Positions 270 to 38,348 of a stretch of DNA of 38,348 nt are shown piece after piece. Under the pieces are notes generated by a model. That model made no database searches. It saw only the letters and a program-made list of their open reading frames with translations, and was not told where the DNA came from. Position 1 is the first letter of the stretch. The number at the start of each line of letters is the position of its first letter. Where the stretch lies: positions 1 through 38,348 of IMG/VR virus record IMGVR_UViG_3300005511_000035; one strand, 5' to 3'. Made by a program: the position numbers and the translations under genes. Source of the stretch: a virus.

Positions 270-1067
270 ATGAATTTCCTATATAGGCTCGGCAAATATT
301 ATGCGAGTGTGGGAGAAACACTGGCGGCGCAAGCGAAGACGGCTGCGATCTTCGATAACCGAACAGACATCGGCATAACCCGCGAGCATATCTATCTCAA
401 ATTACTCACTGGGCACATCCCGGCACGCTGCCAGGCCTTTTTGGGCGGTTCGCTCTTTGACGCTAACGGTCAAGAATCAAAGCAAATCGACATCATCGTC
501 ACCACTGACACTACCCCTCGATTTTTGTTACCTGGGGCGGGGGAAAAAAGCTTTGCCCCTGTGGAGGGATCGCTCGCTGCCGTGTCGGTGAAGTCTAGCC
601 TCGACAAAGCACAACTCGTTGACTCACTTGACTGCCTCGCGTCAATTCCGGCCACACGGCCATTAGGCGACCAAAAGGCTCCGCACATCAAGATCCCGAA
701 CTATGACGATTGGCCGTTAAAGATCGTCTATGCACACACTGGCATCGCGGGAGACACGCTTCTGCACCATATCAATGAGTATTACGCGGAACGGCCGCAC
801 ATCCCAGCTGGCCGCCGCGCGAATTTCATCCACGTTGCTGGACAGTATTTCGTTTTTAGAGCCGACGGAAGCCTCGTCTTGCCGACCGTAGACGGCGTGT
901 CTCACGGCCACCTCCCGTCGGGAGGCTTCTATGGAGTTACAGCCCACCCTGACCTGCAGGGCATCATGTGGACCTTAGATGAGCTGCAAAGTCGTGCCAA
1001 CGCATCTGCGCATATTCTGTTCTCCTATCGAGATCTGTGGAATAACCTCGCAGCCAGACATCGCTAG
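270..1067 (+). CDS. DUF6602-like protein with degenerate nuclease motif
   Basis: This 265-residue protein resembles the DUF6602 family, which has the look of a PD-(D/E)XK nuclease fold. Visible landmarks are a helical N-terminus with REHIYLKLLTGHIPARCQ, then SKQIDIIV (the conserved Asp after a Gln/Ile), then PVEGSLAAVSVKSSLDK, where relatives usually have an E-x-K triad. Here the expected Glu is Ser (VSVKS), so nuclease activity may be lost or use another residue. The ATG at 270 follows the Shine-Dalgarno-like AGGGGAC. It is transcribed toward, and converges with, the SOS-box gene ending at 1071, separated by 3 bp. Its place beside the tRNA, outside the phage modules, marks it as an accessory gene of the prophage end or of the host. 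Family assignment is by eye; function is unknown. Confidence 0.6.
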   Translation: MNFLYRLGKYYASVGETLAAQAKTAAIFDNRTDIGITREHIYLKLLTGHIPARCQAFLGGSLFDANGQESKQIDIIVTTDTTPRFLLPGAGEKSFAPVEGSLAAVSVKSSLDKAQLVDSLDCLASIPATRPLGDQKAPHIKIPNYDDWPLKIVYAHTGIAGDTLLHHINEYYAERPHIPAGRRANFIHVAGQYFVFRADGSLVLPTVDGVSHGHLPSGGFYGVTAHPDLQGIMWTLDELQSRANASAHILFSYRDLWNNLAARHR

Positions 1068-2861: not shown

Positions 2862-2877
2862 GTGCAGACGTTTGCAC
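2862..2877. repeat. Dispersed palindrome, copy 1 (one mismatch)
   Basis: GTGCAGACGTTTGCAC differs at one base from the 16-bp palindrome GTGCAGACGTCTGCAC found four more times in this window. With its flanks, GATG...CATC, the dyad spans 22 bp. It is intergenic, next to the Rz stop codon. Confidence 0.8.
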
Positions 2878-11197: not shown

Positions 11198-14100
11198 GAC
11201 AGCGCCCTCGACGAATTGGCCTCAACGTAGGCAGCATCGGTCATCGCCCGCCGCACGCCATCCACCACCGTTTCAGCGGCGTGTTGTGCGCTGCCGGCAC
11301 CAGCCGTGATCAAATCACCGGTTTGCCGTTGCTGATCGGCACGCAGGCCCCTCAGCTCAACTGCCATCGCATCATTTGATGCCCGCAGTGCCTTAATCTC
11401 ATCGACCAGCGCGATCATATTGCTGGTCCCGATGTTGGAGTAGTTGATTCCCGCGACAGGCTGTGCATACGTCTGCACACCAGCACCCGCTGGCGCGCTT
11501 GGCATACCCTGGCCCGCCTGCGCAATCGCCTTCAAGGTCGCACTGATATCCGCCAGGGTCGCCGACGAATCATTCAACGCGTCGAGGCTGGCTTTCGCGA
11601 CGTCGACGGAGTTGACGGCCCACTGTGCCAACTCGTCGTTGGTCCGCATGACTACCGCCAGGTCCGACGAATATTGAGCATCGCTTCCGTTGATCTTCTG
11701 GGATAGCTGCAGGAAAGTCTGCTCGACGGCACTGAGCTTGCCCTGCGCATCCGTATTGCCGGCTGCAGCAAGCTGGCGAGTTTGTTCAAATTGCCGCCGC
11801 GCCTCCGCGTACTGCTGCTCGGGCGTCAGCGTCGACAGCTCCCCCAGGACCAGGCTGCTATTCAAGCCTGCGGCCGTCGTGGCGAACGATTCCATCTGGT
11901 CCATAAAATTGCTCAGGCTGGATTTCGCCTCGTCCTGGGCATCCTTCACTGCTTTGGCGGCCTGCACCTGGTCAAACAGCGAACGGTTGCTCGCATCGAT
12001 CGCGTCGCGCTGCTTCTTGAGCAGTTCTGCCGAGGTCATCGTCAGCTCGTCCAGCTGATTTTGCAGGTCTTTGCGCTCGCTCAGGACGTCGTCCGCAGCG
12101 TCGATAACGGACTTAAACGCCGGGGCAATGGCCATGAGAGCCGAGTAAGCTTCAGCGCCGGACTTCGTGGTCGTGTCCAAGCCCACCACCACGTTGCGGA
12201 ACATACGCACCGCGCTTTCGCCTTCGGTCGACAGGCCGTACTTCGCCAGCGTCGGCGCAATGCGCGCGCGCAGCGCATCGGCCTGCTCCTGCTCACTGAA
12301 GAAGTTCTCCAAGAAGAATTGGCCCTGGGCGGTGAATTTGTCCAAACCACCAGCCAGTTCAACCAGGCGCTCGCGGGCGGCCATCGAACCGAAGCCAATT
12401 TCGCCAAACGTCTTGCCGAACGACTTAAGCACCACGTCCACGGTCTGGTATTCGTTGGCGAGGCGAGTCAGGGTCTCCAGCGCCCCTTCGCCAGCGTTCT
12501 GGAAGTCCTTCAGATCCGAGATGGCAAACTTTGCCATGTCATCGCCAACCTTGCTCAGCGCGTTCTGAAGGGCCGTCTTCACCTCCTCCGGCTTCAGGTC
12601 TTTGGTACTGATCTTGCCGATATCGATCACAAAGGCGTTCAGTTGCGCGGCGAACGTTTCACCGCCCAGGCCCAGGATGGACGCGCCTTCGAGGATGGTG
12701 TCGCGCAGACCGGTGAAGATTTTCGTGAACTGAGAGTTCACCTCAGGGCCCAGGCCGACGGACTTGGTGTTGTACTTGTCGCTGTGGAACAGGCCACCAT
12801 CCTTTTTCGTTTCGGTGTACTGACTGACGCTGGCGCCAGACTTAGCGATCTGTCCGAGCGTCCCGCCGCCAACAGTCAGCCCCATGTCGACCGTGCTCAC
12901 CTTGCCGCCGAAGATGGACTTGCCAATCTTGCTCCAAACCGAACCAGACTGAGCCGCTACAGCCGTCGTGCTGAAGCCGTCCGTACGGTACAAGATGTTG
13001 CCCAGGCCGTTGATCCCCGCGTTGATGGATTGGAGAACGACCAGCATGCTCGTATTGATCGCCAGACCCTGGTAAGTGTTGTCCTTGACAGCGTCAAGCG
13101 ACTTCGTGATCGACTCGGACTTGGCAGTCGGATCCCCCAGAATTGAGCCGGTACCGTTGGCTTCCTGGCGCTGCGCCGAAAGACTCTTTCCGCCACCACC
13201 GCCGCCACCAACCGCGAAGCCCAGCGCTGCCATCACTGCCGCCATGGCGGCCATACGCGCCCATGCCGTATATGGATCACCCTTCGCTTGGTTGGCAACG
13301 CCTGCTGCGGCTGCGGACACGCCAATTGCTGTATTTGCCGCAACCTCCACGCCAGCGCCGGCAATAGCTGCCGCTGACTGGACGGCCTCACCTTCGACTA
13401 CCGCAGCGGTAACCGTCGCGGTCGATGTCAGCTTGGTCATCATCGATTCCAGGGCCATAGCCATTTCTGTCGCACGATAGGCCTTTTCCACGCCTTCGAG
13501 GACCCTATAGCCCGTCGAGTTCTCATGGAAGAAGCCCTTTGCCGCGCTCGCCATATCCCCGTATGACTTAATCTGTGCCTGCGCCGATTGCTCGGCAGCA
13601 GCGGTGTTCGCGCGGAGAATCTTCGTTTTATCGCCGCCGGCGTCCTTGGTGGCGGCGGCCAGCTGCGCTGCAATGGCCGCCTGGGTCCGGCCGTAGCCAC
13701 TCAGGGCCGTCGTCAGGCCGCCGATGGCCGATCCAACCCGGCCAAAGGACGCCGCCATACCTTGCGCGGCGGACTGCGCGGCCTGGTCCAGCGCCGACAT
13801 AATGTCCAGCATTGCGTGGGCCTGGGTCAGGTCGACGTTGACGGTAACGCCATTCAACCGATTGGCGTACCAGGTATCGAATTGCTCCTGGAGCTGCTTT
13901 TGCGCGGCAGTGCCTTCGCCAGCAAGGCGAATGCGCTCACGCCATGTCTCCGCATCAATGTCGAGCAGTGCTTGCTCGCGTGCGCGAGGGTCCGAGATCG
14001 ATTCTGCAGCGGTCTTTCTGTTGTCAATCCCAAGCTGGCTTGCATAGGCCAATGCCTTCGATTGCGCCAGCGTTGCCTGCTCGACCTCGACGCGCATGCC

Positions 14101-23485: not shown

Positions 23486-23505
23486 GTGTGCAGACGTCTG
23501 CACAC
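23486..23505. repeat. Dispersed palindrome, copy 3 (perfect, 20 bp)
   Basis: GTGTGCAGACGTCTGCACAC is a perfect 20-bp palindrome containing the exact 16-bp consensus GTGCAGACGTCTGCAC at 23488-23503. It is intergenic, between the Mor-like gene and gpW, so coding constraint cannot explain it. Confidence 0.9.
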
Positions 23506-27615: not shown

Positions 27616-30315
27616 TTACTCGGCCCGCACATCGGCCAAGTCCCTGAATTTGTCGATCTCCGCCTCCAGCTGCTCCTTGTCGGGATTGCCGATCTCAAAG
27701 ACCATCCGCGACTTCGGCTGCTTTTTGCTCACTGATACCTTCCGCTTGACCTTGTGTTCGCGACTGGCGATCAGGCCGGCGAACTTGCACAACGTCAGCG
27801 CCTTCTCGCCGCTCTTGTCACACCAGCGCCGGTAGATGCGGTACAAGTCCTCCGACAGGCACGAACTGTACGGCGCGTCCAGATAGCCATCCTTCCACGC
27901 ACGGTGGAATGACATCCAGCCGCTGAGCCCGAACTCGATCACGCGCTCCTTCGCCAGTGTCATCGGCGGCTTGGTGTGCTCGTTGAAGGTGCCGAGGTCC
28001 AACGTGAGGAGGAAGTGATAGAAGGCTTCAATGGCGCCGGCGTCGATCGCCGCCTTGACCTCGGCATAAAACTCCTCCGACTGCTTTGCCCTGGCTTCGA
28101 TCACCATAAACCGGCGATCTTCCAGTTCGATCGGGATCGGCTGCGGCTCATTGGAGAGGAATACGCTATTCATGTGGTTGCGCTCATCGCGCAGCGGCAG
28201 GTTCTTCTCGTTGATGCTCATGGACCTGCCGGTGATCATGTACTTCAACGTGCCGTTGTGACTGAATCGGTCATCGCGGGAGAGGACCTCCTCGAACAGG
28301 ACGAACAGTTTGCGCGAGCGCCATGCGGTGAATGTTGATTCCAGCTGGTGTTGGCTGGCGACCGTGCCGTAGTCGCCGTAGATCGGGGCGACCACATCCT
28401 GAAAGAATAGGCTTTTGCCGGTGCCCTGCTTCTCGCCGAACATCAGCAGCGCGGTCTGCATCTTTGCACCAGGGTGCTGCAGCGGATACGCCAGCCAGCG
28501 CAGGATCCAGTAGACGCAGTCCTCCACCTTATCTTCGGCGCCGCACAGCGACTCAAGGAGCGCGAGGATCGGCGTGACCAGGTCTGCATTGGGTTTCGGT
28601 ATCAGCGGCCAGCCCAGGAAGATGTTCACGTGCGAGACGGGGTCCGCCTGTTGCGTAGGGTCGAACACCAAGTTCTTTGCCTCGATGGTCTTACGCAGCG
28701 CGTGTTCCTGCCATTTCGATGTCAACTCCGCCGTATAGTCGGCGCGCACGGCACCCAGGCTCATCACCTGCTGGCCGATGCCGTCCCAAACAGTTTCGGT
28801 ACCGCGAAGCAGAGTCAGTTGCTCGAGCATCTCGCCAAGCTTGCCGCCAGCGCCGCCACCTTCCACCGCGCGTCCACCGACCAGCGTCGGGAGACTTTCA
28901 CGCATCACAGTGCGCCGGGCCGGATCCTTCTCCCACTTTGCGGCCAGGTCTTTACCGACCCAAGCCGCGAAGGCGGACTTCTTCAAACGTTGCTTGCGGA
29001 GTGAGTCCCATACGTCGGTGGTCGGATAGATCAAGGCGAAGTGGGACAGCAGCCCCTCCAGCGTTGGCACCGTCAGGCTCGTCGGCCCCGCCTGAACCGG
29101 GGGCGCGGGGGGCTCGGAAACGTGATCGGGAGCGGACTCGGCTTCCGGTACAGGAACAGGCACTGGGCCGCTCGACGCCGCGAGCGCGGTCAAGACTTGG
29201 GCACGAACCTCCCCCAACGATTCCTGTACGTGCAAGTCATTGAAGTCGGTCCATTTATTCTCGCCACGATCCTTGAACACTGGCCAGACGACGCGCGCGT
29301 TGCCGACCTCACGTGCAGCGGCGCGCGCGCTGGCAATGCCTGCATTCTCAAATTTCCAGATCTGGAAACGCCGGCCTGACCGCACATCGGCCTCAACATA
29401 ATCGGTACCGGTCAAATCTTTGCGCCAGGTGGCGCGCACGGTCACTTGATCACCCGCTTCGTTGTGCAGCACGTGATCCGTACCGTCAATGGGAGGTGCG
29501 GCAACACCGAACTCGGTCAAAACGTCGCGCTCATACCGCTGGACTAGTTGCCAGTCATCGTCAGCGAAGAAGATCAGTTCGGCGTCCGGGAAGTCTCGCC
29601 GCAGCTGGCGCGCGATGTGCACCAAGTTGCCGGCGCTGAAGGCGACCATAAGCGGCAGCACCTCGTTGGCAGCCATGCGAACGCTTCGACCACTGGCGTA
29701 TCCTTCGGCGAGCCCGATCTGAGGAATGCTTGGGGACAGAGCACCCAGCAGGCAGCTGACCCCAATGGTATCGGCGCCGGCATTGAACTTCTTCTCCCCC
29801 TCGGCATCGATTTTTTGGACGCACATCAGCTCGACGTTGCCAGGCTTATAGCGCCGCGCCGGGATCAGCAGCATGCCGTTTTCGTCGAGGCGCACGCCCT
29901 CACCGGACACTTGCTTGCGAACCAGATAAGGGTGGGCGGCAGCGTCCGTAGCGGGCCTAGCCTGACGCCATTGCATGCGTGCGCGGCCAGCTGCTCGCTC
30001 CACCACAGCAGCCCGGCGCGCTTCCTCCTGACGCGCCTTTTCTTCCTGTCGGCGCTTGATCTTGGCGAGCTCCGCTTCGCTTACGCCTGACCAGTCGGGT
30101 TCGATCTTGACTGTTCCCGGATCACGGCCTTGCCAGCGCCCAAAAGCGCCAGTGACTATGAAGCGCCCGTCGTCGAGCTTTTCTTCAACCAACTTGTACC
30201 AGGACTTCTTGCCCTTGCCGAACTTTCGGAACTTCCCGCTGGTATCCAGCGGAGTCGGCGGCAGTGCAGGTAGCACCGCCGCCATCTGGGCCAGAACCTC
30301 GTTAACCGTCGTCAT
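27616..30315 (-). CDS. Replicative primase-helicase (Toprim + SF3-like ATPase)
   Basis: The 899-residue protein combines an N-terminal region with KKSWYKLVEEKLDDGRF, a Toprim-like domain (EGYASG with E204; FFADDD at 249-254) and a C-terminal P-loop helicase of the DUF5906/NrS-1 polymerase kind. In the helicase, Walker A is GEKQGTGKS (627-635), Walker B is FVLFEEV (671-677), sensor is SNEP (721-724) and the arginine finger is DRR (733-735). About 70 residues are inserted between ADDD and ENAGIASARAAA within the Toprim part. Such proteins prime and unwind phage DNA at the origin. It is transcribed leftward from the Cro-side promoter. Confidence 0.9.
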   Translation of the reverse strand: MTTVNEVLAQMAAVLPALPPTPLDTSGKFRKFGKGKKSWYKLVEEKLDDGRFIVTGAFGRWQGRDPGTVKIEPDWSGVSEAELAKIKRRQEEKARQEEARRAAVVERAAGRARMQWRQARPATDAAAHPYLVRKQVSGEGVRLDENGMLLIPARRYKPGNVELMCVQKIDAEGEKKFNAGADTIGVSCLLGALSPSIPQIGLAEGYASGRSVRMAANEVLPLMVAFSAGNLVHIARQLRRDFPDAELIFFADDDWQLVQRYERDVLTEFGVAAPPIDGTDHVLHNEAGDQVTVRATWRKDLTGTDYVEADVRSGRRFQIWKFENAGIASARAAAREVGNARVVWPVFKDRGENKWTDFNDLHVQESLGEVRAQVLTALAASSGPVPVPVPEAESAPDHVSEPPAPPVQAGPTSLTVPTLEGLLSHFALIYPTTDVWDSLRKQRLKKSAFAAWVGKDLAAKWEKDPARRTVMRESLPTLVGGRAVEGGGAGGKLGEMLEQLTLLRGTETVWDGIGQQVMSLGAVRADYTAELTSKWQEHALRKTIEAKNLVFDPTQQADPVSHVNIFLGWPLIPKPNADLVTPILALLESLCGAEDKVEDCVYWILRWLAYPLQHPGAKMQTALLMFGEKQGTGKSLFFQDVVAPIYGDYGTVASQHQLESTFTAWRSRKLFVLFEEVLSRDDRFSHNGTLKYMITGRSMSINEKNLPLRDERNHMNSVFLSNEPQPIPIELEDRRFMVIEARAKQSEEFYAEVKAAIDAGAIEAFYHFLLTLDLGTFNEHTKPPMTLAKERVIEFGLSGWMSFHRAWKDGYLDAPYSSCLSEDLYRIYRRWCDKSGEKALTLCKFAGLIASREHKVKRKVSVSKKQPKSRMVFEIGNPDKEQLEAEIDKFRDLADVRAE

Positions 30316-31523: not shown

Positions 31524-31559
31524 GACCGCGATAGTAGCCGTTAGCTACTAATTGCGCAA
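31523..31559 (-). promoter_or_regulatory. Leftward early promoter with operator 1
   Basis: Reading leftward, -35 TTGCGC (31554-31559), 17-bp spacer, -10 TACTAT (31531-31536). The spacer holds the palindrome TAGTAGC-CGTTA-GCTACTA (31532-31550), and the -35 lies within ATTGCGCAAT (31551-31560). A protein on the dyad would block the promoter. The same -10, spacer length and dyad recur at 33790-33818. Confidence 0.85.
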
Positions 31560-31588
31560 TAGCCAGCAGGAACTGTTTGGAGGTTATA

Positions 31589-31996
31589 GTGCGACTGATG
31601 AGCCATGAGATCTATGCAGGCTTCGCAAAGCGCCTGTCCCAACTATGCGAAGAGAAGAAGTTGCCCGAGCGCGGGCGTCAAGCCGCCCTGGCGCGGGTTT
31701 GCAGCATTAAGCCGTCGTCTGTGAATAAATGGTTCAATGCAATATCACTGCCTGACGCGACCAACCTGGTGATCATTGCGGAATGGGGCAAAACATCCGT
31801 TGATTGGCTACTGACCGGCAGGGGAATGCAAGAATCCAACGTCGTGCCTGTCGAATTCGCACTTTGCTGGATTAACAGTGATGAGGAAGGCGTATTGAGC
31901 CAATACCGGCAGTGCACCGATGCCGGCAAGAGCTTAGTTAAAGACACCCTGCAGCACGCGGAGAAGGACGCTACACGGCTACGCGCCGCAAGCTAA
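31589..31996 (+). CDS. CI-like HTH repressor without peptidase domain (1)
   Basis: I choose GTG 31589, five bases after GGAGG (135 residues); ATG 31598 (MSHEIYAGF) is also possible. The N-terminal half is an XRE-type HTH (FAKRLSQLCEEK, QAALARVCSIKPSSVNKWFN, DWLLTGRG). The C-terminal half lacks the LexA/S24 protease that lambda CI has, and ends in a short helical module, EGVLSQYRQCTDAGKSLVKD. Autocleavage therefore cannot drive induction. It diverges from the Cro-like gene across operator 1. It shares its C-terminal module with the next repressor, so mixed oligomers are possible. Confidence 0.82.
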   Translation: MRLMSHEIYAGFAKRLSQLCEEKKLPERGRQAALARVCSIKPSSVNKWFNAISLPDATNLVIIAEWGKTSVDWLLTGRGMQESNVVPVEFALCWINSDEEGVLSQYRQCTDAGKSLVKDTLQHAEKDATRLRAAS

Positions 31997-32081: not shown

Positions 32082-32468
32082 ATGGATCTATCTGCGCGAC
32101 TCGACCTGGCAATGCGCCGGGCTGGCTACTCGTCTCAAAGCGCCTTGGCGCGAGCAGCCGGGGTATCACAACCATCCGTCAATCGGATTTTGAAGACCCC
32201 CGGAAACCAGGGGCCAGAGACCGCCACCATCATCAAGCTGGCCAGGGCCTGTGGGGTAACCGCCGAGTACTTGCTTTACGGCATTGAGAGCGAGCTAGAG
32301 AGGCCAGCAATGCAAAACAATCTTGCACTTGTATATCTCGATCAGGCCGAGCTGCGAATCATCACGCTCTACAGAGAGTCGACCTTGGCGGGCAAGCATT
32401 TGATCGCCGAAATGGCCGAAAACGCCCCTAAAGAATTAGATTCGCCGCCGCCCGCCGACGACGAGTGA
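32082..32468 (+). CDS. CI-like HTH repressor without peptidase domain (2)
   Basis: This 128-residue protein has a clean XRE HTH: RLDLAMRRAGYSSQSALARA, then VSQPSVNRILKTPGNQGPET and LARACGVTAEYLLYG. As with the first repressor no S24 peptidase follows. The C-terminal helix AELRIITLYRESTLAGKHLI matches the pattern YR-x2-T-x-AGK-x-L of the first repressor. It follows that gene by 85 bp with its own promoter-like element. Its 3' end is overlapped by the opposing gene at 32436-32618. Either repressor, or a heteromer, may bind the two early operators. Confidence 0.84.
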   Translation: MDLSARLDLAMRRAGYSSQSALARAAGVSQPSVNRILKTPGNQGPETATIIKLARACGVTAEYLLYGIESELERPAMQNNLALVYLDQAELRIITLYRESTLAGKHLIAEMAENAPKELDSPPPADDE

Positions 32469-32618: not shown

Positions 32619-32798
32619 ATTGCCACCTCGTAATCAAAATTGCCTAAGTAACAGGCGAATGATAGTACTTCATTGATAGGGTTTCACCTATTCACATTTT
32701 TGAAAGGCAAATTCATGGTATCGAAAGAAGTTACCTTACGTTAAGTGAATTGCATTTCAATTTGCACTTGCTTGCGTACACTGCGCGAAGGAGGCGCA

Positions 32799-33698
32799 AT
32801 GTACGATTTTCTTGATCTCAAGCTGGTCCAGTACATGAGCGAGGAGACAAGCCTGACCGCTGTAGCGTCCCGGGCGCGAATGTCTTTACCAGCAGTGAGC
32901 CAGCGCCTCGCCAAACTTGAAGAGCATTTCCAGGTCAAGCTTGTAAAGCGCAGCGGGGGCTTTGGCCTCACCCCAGCAGGCCAGCTGCTATTTCGAGCCG
33001 CCGCAAACATCAACGCCGAGATTGCCGATGTGGAGCGCGGCCTACACGACCTCCACGCCAAAAGCCAGGCGCACCTGACCATCAGCTGCAGCGACTCCAC
33101 CCTGATCGACGATCTCCCCCTGGTCTTAGACCGCCTTGTGGCAGACATTCCGGGTCTACGAATTCACGTCCAGGACACCCCCACGGCGCGACTCACAGAC
33201 CAACTGATCGAAGGAGCGATCGACGTCGCCCTCCTTCACGACAAGATCAACACCCCCGGTGTCGAGCTCACTCCCTATCGAACCGAGCGGATCTGCCTCG
33301 TTGTCCCCCTGAGCCATCCCCTGGCGCAGCAACCAGGGCCGATTCAGCTTGCAGACACCTTCAACCACGAGCTCATCCTAGTTGGCGGCGGGCGGCAGAC
33401 TGACCTGGCTTCGGAAATTCAAAAGTTAACCGGAAAAGCTCCGAACGTTCGTGTGACAGTTCAAAGTATTGAGGCCCTATGCACACTCGTCGGCCAGACA
33501 AACCTTGGCATTGGGCTGGCGCCGGAAACCGCAGCACGTCGCCATGCACCTACGCAGCCCATTCAAGTCAGACGCCTAGCAGAGGCATGGACGGTGCGAC
33601 AACTATATGCCTGCACCAGGCCACTTCATGAATCCAATCAGCCAACTCAGCGGTTTGTCGCCCTGCTTGAGGAACGATTCCGGTCGAAACTCAGCTAG
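32799..33698 (+). CDS. LysR-type transcriptional regulator
   Basis: The true start is ATG 32799 (MYDFLDLKLVQYM; 299 residues), preceded by AAGGAGG; the frame above is not coding. The N-terminal HTH is typical (LTAVASRARMSLPAVSQRLA, LEEHFQVKLVKRSGG, LTPAGQLLFRAAA) and the periplasmic-binding-like effector domain follows (LTISCSDSTLIDDLPLVLDRL, IPGLRIHVQD, IDVALLHDK, YRTERICLVVPLSHPLA, VTVQSIEALCTLVGQTNLGIGLAP). LysR proteins sense small metabolites. The gene lies inside the immunity region, between the repressors and the second operator, an unusual place for a metabolic sensor. It may be a lysogenic-conversion gene or link induction to metabolism. Confidence 0.93.
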   Translation: MYDFLDLKLVQYMSEETSLTAVASRARMSLPAVSQRLAKLEEHFQVKLVKRSGGFGLTPAGQLLFRAAANINAEIADVERGLHDLHAKSQAHLTISCSDSTLIDDLPLVLDRLVADIPGLRIHVQDTPTARLTDQLIEGAIDVALLHDKINTPGVELTPYRTERICLVVPLSHPLAQQPGPIQLADTFNHELILVGGGRQTDLASEIQKLTGKAPNVRVTVQSIEALCTLVGQTNLGIGLAPETAARRHAPTQPIQVRRLAEAWTVRQLYACTRPLHESNQPTQRFVALLEERFRSKLS

Positions 33699-33789: not shown

Positions 33790-33818
33790 TTGCATAATCA
33801 GTAGCCATTGGCTACTAT
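33790..33818 (+). promoter_or_regulatory. Rightward early promoter with operator 2
   Basis: -35 TTGCAT (33790-33795), a 17-bp spacer and -10 TACTAT (33813-33818). The operator AGTAGCC-ATT-GGCTACT (33800-33816) fills the spacer, matching operator 1 (AGTAGCC-GTT-AGCTACT) at all but two positions. Further GCTAAC words lie just upstream in 33745-33790. The gap 33699-33844 has no gene. This promoter should serve the operon of ParB and the following genes. Confidence 0.85.
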
Positions 33819-33844: not shown

Positions 33845-34042
33845 ATGCAGTTCAGCATTGGCAGCCGCGATTCAAGAAGTGCACAGCAGTTCGAAGTGCG
33901 AGTGATTTCTCGCAAAGAAGACCCATACGCAGGACTGAAAGGCCACGATTACATCAAGGCCCGCAATCTCGCACCTGTGATTAAGCGTGTGCAGACGTCT
34001 GCACAGAATTCCGACCGCGCTTCGCGCGAGGTGTGCGAATGA
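33845..34042 (+). CDS. Small early protein
   Basis: The start is ATG 33845 (MQFSIGSRDSRSAQQFEVRV; 65 residues), after GGGAGG at 6-nt spacing; an ATG at 33818 overlaps the -10 element and cannot be used. The protein begins as a short beta strand region and contains DPYAGLKGHDYIKARNLAPV. Its last third (RVQTSAQNSDRASREVCE) is polar, and the DNA encoding VQTSAQ is a perfect copy of the dispersed palindrome. It is first in the rightward early operon and overlaps the next gene by ATGA. Function is unknown. Confidence 0.72.
   Translation: MQFSIGSRDSRSAQQFEVRVISRKEDPYAGLKGHDYIKARNLAPVIKRVQTSAQNSDRASREVCE
33988..34005. repeat. Dispersed palindrome, copy 4 (perfect)
   Basis: TGTGCAGACGTCTGCACA is a perfect 18-bp palindrome containing the exact 16-bp consensus (33989-34004). 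It lies at the end of the first gene of the ParB operon, 575 bp upstream of the ParB gene. Confidence 0.9.
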
Positions 34043-34563
34043 ACGCACCACTGACCATCGCGATTTTGCCGGCGCAGGAATCCAAGCTGAGTGACCATGC
34101 GGCCGCACTGCTGGCCAGCATGAAGAACCTGCAGGCTGCGGCCAGCAACGCTTACGAGCTCCTCGAGGAGGCCGGCTTCGCAGGCCTGCGCGGCGACACT
34201 GCTGATGACCTGCGCCAGGCGCTCGCCATCCACGACCACCTAGTCCAAGAATTCAACGTCAAGGTGCGCACCAGCACCGGTACCGCCACGTTCTGCACCT
34301 GCGCGACGAATGCCGCCTGCGCCGCCGAAGAGGAGCTGGAGCGCCAAGGCGATACGCCTTGCGGCATTACCGTTACGCCGGCCGACCCAGACCTCCACTC
34401 CCTGGCAGCTGCACATCGCTTCTTCAAGGTTGCCAGCCCCCTGGACACCGCGCTGAAAGACCCATCGATAGGCCGAGCGCTGCGCACCTACGCACGCAAG
34501 CACCCTGTGCGCCGCTTGCCGACCGCCGATTTCAAATCCCTTGCGGCCAACGACCGCGATTAA
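34039..34563 (+). CDS. Early operon protein of unknown function
   Basis: ATG 34039 overlaps the previous stop as ATGA (174 residues, MNAPLTIAILPAQES). The first half is helical (ALLASMKNLQAAASNAYELLEEAGFAGLRG). The middle has a Cys group, FCTCATNAACAAEEE, that could bind metal, and C-terminal parts include LHSLAAAHRFFKVASPLD and a basic tail. I do not recognise the family. It lies directly upstream of ParB in the same transcript, separated by 16 bp, so it may be a partner in the same process. Confidence 0.7.
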   Translation: MNAPLTIAILPAQESKLSDHAAALLASMKNLQAAASNAYELLEEAGFAGLRGDTADDLRQALAIHDHLVQEFNVKVRTSTGTATFCTCATNAACAAEEELERQGDTPCGITVTPADPDLHSLAAAHRFFKVASPLDTALKDPSIGRALRTYARKHPVRRLPTADFKSLAANDRD

Positions 34564-34579
34564 CTGAGAGACCCACGCC

Positions 34580-36676
34580 ATGAGCAAACTTGTAGTCCTT
34601 CCAGCGCCGGTTGTACCGGCTCCCGCCGACCAGGTGATCGTTGTCGATGAACTTGTTATTGAGGGCTATCGCGACATTCCGCTACACCTGATCCGCATTT
34701 CGTACACGAACCGGACCCGCTTCAACCCTGAGGCGCTGCAGCAACTCGCGGACAATATCGCCGAAGTGGGCATCCTCCAGCCGATCCTGCTGCGCCCGGT
34801 CACGCCGACCGCCGATGTGCCGCAGATCTTCGAAGTTGTTGCCGGCGAGCGCCGCTTCCGTGCGGCTGTTATGGCCGGCCTGCAAGTCGCGCCCGCCAGC
34901 ATCAAGCACCTGACGGACAAACAGGCTGCCGAAGTCCAGCTGCTTGAAAACATCCAACGCGAGAACCCTCATCCGCTGGAAGAGGCGATCGGCTTCGAGC
35001 AATTGATGCTCAAGCACGGCTACAACGCCGACCAGTTGGCCGCGAAGGTCAAGCAGAGCCGCTCGTATGTGTATGGGCGCCTGAAGCTGTGCGCACTGTC
35101 GCTGCGCGCCCGTGAACTGTTCCTGGACGATGTGCAACGCTTCCCTGCCTCGCTCGCATTACTGATCGCACGCATCCCAACGCCGGAGCTGCAAGATCAG
35201 GCTCTGGGCGAAATCATGCAACCATATGGCGATGATGAGCCGATGTCCGTGCGCGACGCGGCGCAATACATCGCTAGTCGCTACACCCTGAACCTGGACG
35301 CCGCCGCCTTTGACATCAAGGATGCGAAGCTGATGGCCAGCGCAGGCAGCTGCGTGAAATGCCCTAAGCGCACCGGCAATCAGCCTGAGATCTACACCGA
35401 CGCCAGAAGTGCAAACGTCTGCACGGATCCAGACTGCTTCGCCGAGAAAAAGGCCGCTCACTATCAACGCATCATTGTCATCGCCAACAAGAAAGGAATT
35501 CCGGTCCTGGAAGGCGAAGAGGCAGACGCCGCACAACCTGACACGTGGAGCCGCGAAGAGGAGTTCGTCACCGAAGACCATCACTTGAGCGCTTTTGATC
35601 GCGTGTCGCCGGCAACCGGGATGTCCGGCGCGATCAAGAAGCACCTCACCACAGTTGGCTGGCCAGCACCGGCGAAATACCTCAAGAACGAAAACGGTAG
35701 CGTTGATCCCCTCTATCGCCGCGAGGACATCCAGGCCGCGCTGGAAAAGGCCGGCGCATGCGAATCGGAGCATGAGCGCACTGCGCGTCTCGGCGACGCC
35801 TCGGATGCACAGAACGTCAAGTTGACCAAGCAGCAGGAGGCCGAAGCGAAGGCCGCCAAGGAGCGCGAAGAACGCCAACAGCGTTGCAAGACGCTTACGC
35901 AGGAGCGTGTGATCCGCTACCGCAAGCTCCGTGCTCGCGCCGCCGGCGGACTCACGCTGACCATGCTACGCGAACTGACCAAAGCACTTGCCCTCGGCAC
36001 TTACGACGTCAGCCTGCCAGACGACTTGATCGGTGACCTGTACCCATTCCAGGACCGCAGCGACGCTGGCCTGTGCAAATTCATCGACCAAGCCGATGTG
36101 GCGACCGTTCAGCTGTTGCTGATGGACCTTGTCGTAGGCGAAAGCCTCAGCGTGTCTACTTGGGATTTGGATGATGATCCCTCGCCAAGCGCTCTGGCGA
36201 TGCTCGCCATGGCCAAGGCGGACGGCATCGATGTCACTCCGGCAGACATGGCCGTTGCAAGCATTGATATCGAAGGCCTGCAGGATCCGGTCGGCGTCCG
36301 CGACGCAATCGCCGCCAACATCGACCATCTGGCTGCTGTCGCCGCACACATCATCGACAAGGCGCCACACCACCTGGCCAACGTAGAGGCCGCCGCAAAT
36401 AGCCTCGGTTACTTCTACAGCACCAACGGCTGGCAGAAGAAGGCAAACGAGGCAACCCCAGAAGTCAAGGCGACGCCCAACCATGGCGCGGAAGAACCAG
36501 CGAGCGCGCAGGCACCGCGCAAGACGATCACGCTCAAGCCGAAGGCGCAGAGCCAGCAAGAGGGCGAAGCCAGTCCGGTCGTCAAGGTGAAGAAGGACCG
36601 CGCTGCACAAGCTGCCGCTGCCTTGACCCCTGCCACAGCCTGGCCATTCCCTACCCCGACCCGAATCACCACCTAA
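34580..36676 (+). CDS. ParB/RepB/Spo0J-family DNA-binding protein
   Basis: The 698-residue protein has an intact ParB core. It contains box I NRTRFNPEALQQLADNIAEV, the CTP-binding GERRFRAA (89-96), ENIQRENPHPLEEAIGF (123-139) and the HTH YNADQLAAKVKQSRSYVYGR (148-167). After about 190 comes a phage-type extension with four Cys (C258, C261, C281, C286) that could bind zinc, long charged helices and a Pro/Ala/Lys-rich end. ParB proteins load at palindromic parS sites and slide as CTP clamps. No ParA ATPase is seen in the window. Five copies of a 16-bp palindrome, one inside this gene, are candidate targets. Confidence 0.92.
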   Translation: MSKLVVLPAPVVPAPADQVIVVDELVIEGYRDIPLHLIRISYTNRTRFNPEALQQLADNIAEVGILQPILLRPVTPTADVPQIFEVVAGERRFRAAVMAGLQVAPASIKHLTDKQAAEVQLLENIQRENPHPLEEAIGFEQLMLKHGYNADQLAAKVKQSRSYVYGRLKLCALSLRARELFLDDVQRFPASLALLIARIPTPELQDQALGEIMQPYGDDEPMSVRDAAQYIASRYTLNLDAAAFDIKDAKLMASAGSCVKCPKRTGNQPEIYTDARSANVCTDPDCFAEKKAAHYQRIIVIANKKGIPVLEGEEADAAQPDTWSREEEFVTEDHHLSAFDRVSPATGMSGAIKKHLTTVGWPAPAKYLKNENGSVDPLYRREDIQAALEKAGACESEHERTARLGDASDAQNVKLTKQQEAEAKAAKEREERQQRCKTLTQERVIRYRKLRARAAGGLTLTMLRELTKALALGTYDVSLPDDLIGDLYPFQDRSDAGLCKFIDQADVATVQLLLMDLVVGESLSVSTWDLDDDPSPSALAMLAMAKADGIDVTPADMAVASIDIEGLQDPVGVRDAIAANIDHLAAVAAHIIDKAPHHLANVEAAANSLGYFYSTNGWQKKANEATPEVKATPNHGAEEPASAQAPRKTITLKPKAQSQQEGEASPVVKVKKDRAAQAAAALTPATAWPFPTPTRITT
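35409..35424. repeat. Dispersed palindrome, copy 5 (one mismatch)
   Basis: GTGCAAACGTCTGCAC differs at one base from the consensus. It lies inside the ParB-family gene, in codons for SANVCT at the third Cys of the Cys cluster. Here protein constraint also applies, so this copy is the weakest evidence of the five. Confidence 0.7.
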
Positions 36677-36688
36677 TCGAGCAACCCA

Positions 36689-37480
36689 ATGAACATGAAA
36701 AAACTCACTAACTTGATCTCCGCTGCATACACTCACGCCACCCTGACAGCCTCGCGACTTCTTCCTTGGCTGCCGGGCGTAGCACCAGGCCCTGTCAGCA
36801 CGCCCGCCCTGAACAAGGTTCTTCTCAATCTATGTGGTGGCGACCGAGAACTCGCCCTGTTCGTCATGCGCTGGATCGCTTTTCCACTACGCCGTCATCA
36901 CGCCAAGCTGGCGACAGCGCTCTGGATCCGCAGCGGTCAAGGCAACGGCAAAAGCCTGTATTTTGAACAGGCTATTTTGCCGCTCTTCCTCGAGCATGGC
37001 GTGAGCGTGCCCGACTACAAACTGTCCTCTTCCTTCAATGACTGGCTGTACGGTCGGCACATGGTCGTGGTCAATGGCGCGATGGCCCGCGCCGAGGAGG
37101 TGGCGACGCTTAAGCACATGATTACCAGCTCGCACGTCAAGTTGCACAGCAAAGGCCGACCGTCCATCACGACCAAGAACCGCGCCAATTTCGTGTGCCT
37201 TTCTGGCCACCAGGAGGCACTCCCGATCGACAGCTGCGATCGCCGCTTTGTGGTGATTGAAAGTGGACCTGCATTGCCTCGGGAAGTCTATGCCGCTGCC
37301 GCAAAGGAGATCAGGAGCGGCGGCGTTGAGGCGCTATACCGCTACTTCACTCGCGAGATCCGTATGGGTGGTTTTAGCATCGACTCATTACCTGGCCAAC
37401 GAACCATCCAGACCGAAGAAATGCGCGCCCGCTTCCTGAAACCCATTCAGCACGCAGAAAAAGTCGGCGGTGCACAGTAA
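36689..37480 (+). CDS. Stand-alone SF3-like helicase paralogue, probably ATPase-dead
   Basis: The 263-residue protein aligns by eye with the C-terminal helicase domain of the primase-helicase at 27616: VMRWIAFPLRRHHAKLATAL, Walker A RSGQGNGKSLYFEQ (81-94), SSSFNDWLYGR, LKHMITSS and DSCDRRFVVIE (181-191). Walker B, FEEV in the large protein, is NGAM here (129-132), and the sensor SNEP has become SGHQ. The nucleotide-binding loop and arginine finger remain, but the catalytic acids are lost. The N-terminus is short, with no Toprim domain. A dead helicase subunit may regulate the active one by mixed-ring formation. The gene overlaps the next by TAATG. Confidence 0.78.
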   Translation: MNMKKLTNLISAAYTHATLTASRLLPWLPGVAPGPVSTPALNKVLLNLCGGDRELALFVMRWIAFPLRRHHAKLATALWIRSGQGNGKSLYFEQAILPLFLEHGVSVPDYKLSSSFNDWLYGRHMVVVNGAMARAEEVATLKHMITSSHVKLHSKGRPSITTKNRANFVCLSGHQEALPIDSCDRRFVVIESGPALPREVYAAAAKEIRSGGVEALYRYFTREIRMGGFSIDSLPGQRTIQTEEMRARFLKPIQHAEKVGGAQ

Positions 37481-38178
37481 TGAACGCTTTCAAAAATCAC
37501 ACGACAACTGCAGCGCCCCTGGGCCAACCACCAGCCGCGCAGATCATCGCCTGCCTGGTGTCGGAGCTCCGCGCTGCTGGCGAGATCCTGGTGGCCCTAC
37601 GCCACTTCGGTACGCAAACACAGCTGCTGCATGCACGGATCGACCTGCAGGGGCGCGGCCTGATCGAAGGCCACATGCTCCGCACACCGGAGCGCGAAGC
37701 GGTGCTGGATATGGCAAAGCAGTACACACAGCAGTACCAAGCCGCGATTTCGGCGGCGCCGGTGAGCGCTGCCGCTACGCGCGACCTCCTGCACCGCCTG
37801 CGCACCGTTGCCGGCCAGAGCACGATCAAGCCTCCCGCCATCGACCTGGAGGCTGCCGATCACATTGAGAAACTTCAGCGATACATTGACGAAGCGCCAT
37901 CTGGCATCAATTTTGTGCAGGTCACGTCGAACCCTGACGTTATCCGGCCCGACCTGGGCGACCGTCGCTTTTGGCCTGTCGACCTGACTGCGCAAGATAG
38001 TGCTGCCATCCCTTCGTCAGCCGGCCAGGAATTGGTTTCCATCCTGGAAGGCGCTCTGGCCGACGACCTGGTGCAATACCACTCCCAGGAGTGGCTGGCG
38101 CGCGCACGCACTGCCATCGCAAAGCATCGCAGTCCTGCAGCCACCGAGTCGCAGCAAACTCCAGGCGGTGCGGTATGA
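37480..38178 (+). CDS. Early protein with phage-ATPase arginine-finger motif
   Basis: The 232-residue protein starts within the stop of the helicase paralogue (TAATG). The first 145 residues are helical and Ala/Gln-rich and I do not recognise them (IIACLVSELRAAGEILVALR). Residues about 150-180 then read INFVQVTSNPDVIRPDLGDR-RFWPVDLT, which matches the sensor/arginine-finger end of VirE/VapE-type phage P-loop ATPases, although no Walker A or B is present. Either it is a fragment of such an ATPase grafted on another protein, or a subunit that supplies the finger in trans. The end is polar. Confidence 0.62.
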   Translation: MNAFKNHTTTAAPLGQPPAAQIIACLVSELRAAGEILVALRHFGTQTQLLHARIDLQGRGLIEGHMLRTPEREAVLDMAKQYTQQYQAAISAAPVSAAATRDLLHRLRTVAGQSTIKPPAIDLEAADHIEKLQRYIDEAPSGINFVQVTSNPDVIRPDLGDRRFWPVDLTAQDSAAIPSSAGQELVSILEGALADDLVQYHSQEWLARARTAIAKHRSPAATESQQTPGGAV

Positions 38179-38348
38179 AGAAAACAGCGCCGCTGCCGCG
38201 CCAACCCATTGTCTTCCCCCGCGCAGATCCAGCGGCCCTGGTGGAGTTTGATCCTGCTACCAAGGAGTGCACCATGAACTGCGGGCCACACCGCGATGAC
38301 CCGCGCAGCGCGAAGGAACGCAAGCTGCTTTGTGATGAGTGCCGTGGA
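38175..38348 (+). CDS. Cys-rich phage protein, cut by window edge
   Basis: ATG 38175 overlaps the previous stop as ATGA, and 58 codons are open to the end of the window. The visible part reads MKKTAPLPRQPIVFPRADPA, then a segment with CTMNCGPHRDDPRSAKERKLL and CDECRG. The pairs C-x3-C and C-x2-C with an intervening His suggest a zinc-binding knuckle. It continues the rightward early operon. The C-terminus is not visible. Confidence 0.65.
   Translation, partial: MKKTAPLPRQPIVFPRADPAALVEFDPATKECTMNCGPHRDDPRSAKERKLLCDECRG

Follow-up and report, generated by a model that had tools for sequence, protein, structure and literature searches.

In Bacillus subtilis, a parS site lies inside spo0J, the gene of the chromosomal ParB. 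KorB of plasmid RK2 works with KorA at promoters, and a ParA-like partner is present. KorB itself is a ParB-family CTP clamp, and its operators are scattered over the replicon (PMC11790492, PMC5016525). Dispersed centromeres have also been described in phage N15, whose SopAB system has four inverted repeats (IR1-4) scattered over the phage genome (PMC5016525, PMC7205306) together with SopA, a protelomerase and a plasmid prophage (PMC7205306, PMC3918226). Orphan ParBs, which lack a ParA, are frequent among phages and other mobile elements, and their roles there are mostly unknown (PMC12704722). Serratia phage Eta, for example, is temperate and has a ParB without a ParA, and its authors looked for parS without finding it (PMC3918226). 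For Variovorax phage VarioGold, the ParB domain was only named and no parS was reported (PMC9658991).

The locus analyzed here shares with the chromosomal ParB-parS (Spo0J) system the ParB_N CTPase fold, the GERR motif, the helix-turn-helix (HTH), a 16-bp palindrome centred on ACGT and a site inside parB. It differs in having neither ParA nor a ParA motif, in the sequence of the site, in the spread of sites over the phage genome, and in the Cys-rich element and long extension that follow the HTH in the phage ParB. As in N15, several candidate centromere sites are scattered across the phage genome. However, the ParB class and the site are different, and most of the phages have an integrase while none has a ParA. 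Compared with KorB and its operators, the candidate sites of the phages are mostly within genes. VarioGold and Acidovorax phage Aval have the same ParB family in the same genomic place, and we identified dispersed sites in both. The ParB of Eta is short (273 aa) and belongs to another branch. We attempted to extend the site to Eta, and only two or three weak recurrent near-palindromes were found there, none of them convincing. Scattered centromeres and orphan ParBs were thus already known; what appears to be new is a set of defined candidate sites for ParA-less phage ParBs.

The window, that is, the whole stretch of DNA analyzed, is a linear virus record of 38,348 bases with a six-gene operon (A-B-parB-D5'-E-F) at its right end (Table 1). 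All six genes are on the plus strand and neighbours overlap or nearly touch. On the minus strand to the left are a CII-like gene and the primase-helicase of the phage, with repressor-like HTH genes in between. A sequence-only reading of this DNA had listed the six frames with tight ATGA, TAATG and ATGA overlaps, a small first protein whose DNA ends in a perfect palindrome, a Cys-containing partner and a Cys-rich last protein. The frames and overlaps were all found in place, as was a perfect palindrome copy close to the end of gene A. The Cys-rich gene F is present, although truncated by the contig end. The partner, gene B, is a real gene, but its Cys residues are not conserved among relatives. 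Its structure model (pLDDT 74, modest confidence) had no match in a comparison with the PDB. PADLOC models gave zero matches among the operon proteins, and the operon was therefore ruled out as a known defence system.

Table 1. Features of the ParB locus and candidate parS sites in the window
Feature	Position	Strand	Description
Candidate parS GTGCAGACGTTTGCAC	2862..2877		1 mismatch; between Rz-like and Dam genes
Candidate parS GTGCATACGTCTGCAC	11463..11478		1 mismatch; inside tape-measure gene
Candidate parS GTGCAGACGTCTGCAC	23488..23503		perfect; between portal and terminase genes
Primase-helicase	27616..30315	-	full-length, the phage's own; active-looking homologue of D5'
Operator copy AGTAGCCGTTAGCTACT	31533..31549		one mismatch to AGTAGCCATTGGCTACT; between Cro-like and repressor genes
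Repressor-like HTH gene	31577..31996	+	adjoins operator at 31533-31549
Second repressor-like HTH gene	32082..32468	+	
Promoter-like TTGCAT-17-TACTAT	33790..33818	+	ahead of operon; read by eye
Operator AGTAGCCATTGGCTACT	33800..33816		17-bp inverted repeat overlapping the promoter of the ParB operon
Gene A	33845..34042	+	65 aa, no known family; relatives in 8 loci; perfect palindrome copy near end
Candidate parS GTGCAGACGTCTGCAC	33989..34004		perfect; in gene A
A/B overlap	34039..34042	+	ATGA
Gene B	34039..34563	+	174 aa, no known family; kept directly upstream of parB (9 sequences)
parB	34580..36676	+	ParB CTPase fold at the N-terminus, then HTH, Zn-ribbon-like element with four Cys (258-286), a long helical extension and a disordered tail
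Candidate parS GTGCAAACGTCTGCAC	35409..35424		1 mismatch; in parB, codons 277-282
D5'	36689..37480	+	DUF5906; primase-less, Walker-B-deficient paralogue of the phage's own replicative helicase
Helicase (D5')/E overlap	37478..37482	+	TAATG
Gene E	37480..38178	+	N-terminal domain (~1-132) and C-terminal helicase-like fragment with DRRF arginine finger
E/F overlap	38175..38178	+	ATGA
Gene F	38175..38348	+	Cys-rich, no family; truncated by contig end

ParB matched PF02195 (E = 2.6e-21) and PF17762 (E = 3.7e-8), both above the cut-off, and four Cys residues (258, 261, 281 and 286) are invariant in 36 relatives; the ParB with a zinc-like extension proposed earlier was thus recovered. The GERR and ENxQR motifs are retained in the N-terminal part (36 ParBs, with a GHRR variant in one subgroup). 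An AlphaFold2 model (pLDDT 79, pTM 0.48) matched, over about 200 residues, the folds of CTP-bound ParB of M. xanthus (E = 2e-13), Noc and the RK2 KorB-KorA complex, while structure comparison of the long extension gave no match. Judged by these motifs and the model, ParB is probably a CTP clamp that slides from parS. It falls below the NCBIfam cut-offs for both the Noc model TIGR04285 (119 vs 315 bits) and the PRTRC ParB model TIGR03734 (124 vs 278.6 bits). The extension was also considered as a zinc-finger nuclease, which we rejected, the match to the I-TevI zinc finger being only sub-threshold. In seven relatives (L032, L033, L034, L036, L038, L040 and L041), GHRR replaces the nucleotide-binding motif GERR, and nucleotide preference may differ in this subgroup.

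No ParA was visible to the earlier reading, and this was confirmed. PF13614 was found in none of the 34 ParB-bearing records, while the same search was positive in all 14 control genomes. Likewise, the ParA-interaction motif [LFI]G[KR]G[LFI], as defined in PMC12704722, occurs in none of 36 ParBs.

The sequence GTGCAGACGTCTGCAC is palindromic over 16 bp and, in its form, is centred on ACGT like chromosomal parS. At zero or one mismatch it has five copies across the window, compared with 0.04 expected from dinucleotide shuffling, so the dispersed palindromes reported earlier are far above chance. A motif-naive search of the window, Aval and VarioGold recovered it as the sole type of near-palindrome that recurs. 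Each of the 34 virus records with a ParB related to that of the window contains the candidate site one to seven times; a reversed-pattern control gave one match in total over the same records. Over 35 phage genomes (1.25 Mb), we counted 153 sites at two or fewer mismatches. By comparison, 40 scrambled palindromes made of the same letters as GTGCAGACGTCTGCAC gave a mean of 0.70 and a maximum of 3. Some variation was seen among phages: Aval uses GTGCACACGTGTGCAC, and a subgroup of three (G025, G029 and G030) favours GTGCAGACGCCTGCAC or its complement. Two ParB-bearing records hold a single site each. Divergent recognition helices were observed in the ParBs of L033 (G026) and L041 (G032), with one weak site per contig. 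These two ParBs may use another site; a motif-naive search for a motif specific to them found none.

The association also holds when the site, rather than the protein, is the starting point. Among 2.9 million virus contigs, the exact 16-mer was found in at least 120 stretches and a scrambled palindrome in two. We chose 37 contigs longer than 25 kb by the 16-mer alone, excluding those known from the ParB search, and ParB_N was encoded by 32 of them. In one of the other five (G054), the spacings between sites (13518, 7030 and 6864) are those of a prophage of Massilia sp. Root351, in which parB lies just beyond the last of these sites. Thus, G054 looks like a prophage record cut ahead of parB. 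Two virus contigs of 36-41 kb, G037 (L054) and G060 (L109), have three sites each and no ParB_N match; they might be fragments, or site-only phages that use or evade the ParB of another phage. Among terminase relatives without ParB, 11 of 12 have zero sites at two or fewer mismatches, and common phage descent was therefore rejected as the source of the palindrome. In 11 host genomes (64.6 Mb), 42 of 47 sites at one mismatch or less are inside prophage clusters, a count that takes in a second cluster of one genome (contig C6 of G076) on its identical spacing and not on its ParB. As the palindrome is nearly absent outside prophages in these genomes, we rejected it as a general feature of host DNA. 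The genome concerned is that of Noviherbaspirillum denitrificans, in which the identical spacing of the two clusters, on contigs C1 and C6, suggests a near-identical prophage pair or an assembly duplicate. Both the statistical and the phylogenetic association point to the palindrome as the candidate cognate parS of this ParB. No paper on this 16-mer as a phage site was found in a literature coverage without preprints and with few subscription papers. The sites could also help to delimit prophages: one predicted prophage, with sites as far as its very end, had been truncated just short of its ParB gene.

We also surveyed selection on the site and its placement. In an alignment of 33 parB genes, conservation of silent positions at codons 277, 278 and 279 ranks 1, 7 and 6 of 310. 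It vanishes at codons 282-285 despite invariant amino acids and ends where the palindrome ends. The alignment thus showed that this candidate site, which is frequent among relatives and overlaps the codons of the four-Cys element, is under selection at the DNA level and not at the protein level. Where the other sites are placed depends on the lineage: gene A, the terminase gene (at two different positions), the tape-measure gene or the gap between the Rz and Dam genes. Coding constraint was rejected as the cause of the palindrome by the silent-site test and by this movement among genes. The mean spacing of sites is 7.6 kb, which fits loading along the whole genome. Across all genomes the spacing is more even than random. 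We scaled a strong regularity back to a modest one once relatives were thinned, since the evenness in the thinned set is only modestly beyond random (P = 0.01-0.02).

A single repressible promoter had been proposed for the operon, and the 17-bp inverted repeat that overlaps the promoter-like sequence and recurs beside the repressor genes supports this proposal. The promoter-like sequence itself was not listed by a consensus promoter scan. In relatives, a different, phage-specific palindrome is common to both places; it is clear in L005, L007 and L008 and weaker in L003, L004, L006, L010 and L014. The comparison system for an operator shared between an early promoter and the immunity region is OL/OR of lambda. 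By analogy, the ParB operon should be pL-like, off in the lysogen and on after infection or induction. As the operon promoter and the immunity region have an operator in common, the operon is probably repressed in lysogens.

A relative of ParB is encoded in 40 virus loci. In eight of them A and B are upstream of parB, and the trio moves together. Downstream of parB, there is a relative of D5' (14 loci), a relative of E (five loci) or other small genes, followed in several loci by an excisionase-like HTH gene and, further downstream, an integrase. In VarioGold and Aval, ParB is likewise encoded between CI and MerR/AlpA-integrase. Comparison of gene order across relatives therefore indicates that parB is constant in the early region and that the remainder, beyond A-B-ParB, varies as an accessory zone; the six genes do not make up a single fixed machine. 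Among the matches listed, ParB relatives in genomes are mostly in prophages of Betaproteobacteria, from many genera (Massilia, Janthinobacterium, Duganella, Undibacterium, Herbaspirillum, Thauera, Variovorax and others). The sequence-only reading had proposed an uncharacterised ParA-less ParB system with dispersed palindromes and had named a gene order restricted to this prophage as its own refutation. The order of A-B-ParB passed this test in eight relatives, and the system is conserved well beyond this prophage. Two further claims fared less well: a joint function of all six genes is unsupported in that form, as the content after parB varies, and the restriction to one narrow phage group does not agree with the many betaproteobacterial genera. 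In Comamonas odontotermitis, a circular 'plasmid' of 36,925 bases (L255, NZ_CP083453.1) is a phage of the present type, with an integrase, ParB and six candidate sites, and is either a phage-plasmid or an excised circle.

D5' matched PF19263 (DUF5906/D5 helicase) with 55.7 bits against a cut-off of 27.6, and its model matched the primase-helicase chains 6k9e and 6k9c (E = 2.8e-12). Compared with these solved chains of the NrS-1-type phage primase-helicase (DUF5906), D5' lacks the primase part and the Walker B acidic residues. In a tree, 15 D5' proteins group together in a single clade (support 0.98), separate from 12 full-length primases of these phages. The acidic pair of Walker B is NG in the window D5', which agrees with the dead helicase described earlier. 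Among the 15 proteins, the Walker B Glu is replaced by Gly or Thr in 12 and by Asp in two; one protein keeps the Glu but has lost the Asp. The Walker A Lys is missing in three, and the first Arg of the arginine finger is kept in all 15. The full-length primases of these phages retain both Walker B acidic residues. By these comparisons, D5' belongs to an old and separate clade with its Walker B residues lost, which suggests that it may still fit into a helicase ring and have a dominant-negative or structural role. As it is absent from many relatives, D5' is not essential to the core. The N-terminal part of gene E (about residues 1-132) is kept after parB in five other phages. The arginine-finger protein of the earlier reading does contain a short helicase-like fragment with such a finger, but the fragment is peculiar to the window and missing in the relatives of E. 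It seems that the window E gained an additional helicase fragment.

Our preferred interpretation, to which we give a probability of roughly 0.55, is a ParA-less ParB-parS system of temperate siphophages, with dispersed loading, covering or clustering of phage DNA, and D5' as an accessory. Self-loading would take place at the dispersed 16-bp parS sites, about five in number, where ParB would form a clamp gated by CTP and slide outwards, and the whole phage genome of about 38 kb, not the host chromosome, would be covered or clustered. The clamp would organise, mark or cluster replicating phage DNA, rather than partition the prophage in the manner of a plasmid. D5' would join or block helicase rings of the phage's own kind, acting as a dominant-negative brake or exclusion factor. 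Since the operon is under the phage's own immunity operator, ParB would most likely act early, after infection or induction. More tentatively, and with considerable doubt, these ParBs might form a non-segregation class, in which an early-lytic, genome-wide clamp coat, loaded from dispersed parS sites, serves to cluster the phage's own DNA or to identify it. Repeatedly, this coat would be coupled to an inactivated helicase paralogue that limits the replication of related phages. One large group of orphan ParBs gains a defined candidate DNA target here. If the clamp does coat the whole phage genome, this would represent a novel mode of viral DNA organisation within the bacterial cell. As the candidate target is present in isolated and inducible phages such as VarioGold, the role of ParB is directly testable.

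We ranked the organising or marking of replicating DNA above long-range regulation of the KorB kind, and the latter above episomal partition. Regulation, in which a KorB- or VirB-like ParB slides from distant sites and silences or unsilences phage promoters, is the less improbable of the two. The fold match of the ParB model to the KorB-KorA complex agrees with it, and KorB acts as a CTP clamp from distal operators (PMC11790492). Of 159 sites, 33 (about a fifth) fall between genes, as judged from approximate gene calls, notably by the Dam/Rz and terminase genes. However, the others are within genes, such as in the middle of the terminase gene or in the tape-measure gene, far from evident promoters and variable among lineages. 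In the comparison with KorB-type systems, no KorA-like partner was identified.

Partition at an extrachromosomal stage, driven by a ParA that is borrowed or supplied by the host, or achieved by hitch-hiking on the nucleoid of the host, seems rather unlikely. A ParB of this family with parS-like sites is present, N15 partitions via scattered sites (PMC5016525, PMC7205306), and the circular 36.9-kb Comamonas replicon has the module with its six sites, so an episomal phase is possible. Chromosomal prophages occur alongside this single circular replicon. Against partition stand the integrase beside the operon in many relatives, the immunity operator over the operon and the lack of ParA (0 of 34 records) and its interaction motif (0 of 36 ParBs). 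Still less likely is a role of ParB in loading the SMC condensin of the host onto phage DNA, or in protecting that DNA from host nucleases. Loading of SMC at parS is an established activity of chromosomal ParB in other bacteria (PMC9564211), and the sites extend over the entire phage genome and are seldom present in host DNA, but none of the operon proteins matched a defence family. A last explanation, that the palindromes come from descent or protein coding and are unlinked to ParB, is largely refuted and very improbable: although one frequent site falls in conserved Cys-rich parB codons, silent positions are conserved under the palindrome only, different genes and codons hold sites in different lineages, ParB-less terminase relatives (11 of 12) lack them, and the exact 16-mer alone predicts ParB.

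Two other genes of the window were noted. A full LysR-type regulator gene (32745-33698, plus strand), for which no relative was found in the related loci, separates the repressor genes from the ParB operon promoter. At the other end of the contig, a 265-aa protein (270-1067, plus strand) had PADLOC matches to nuclease models of the PD-DExK/NucC type (best E = 4.7e-16), and its gene is possibly an accessory or defence gene.
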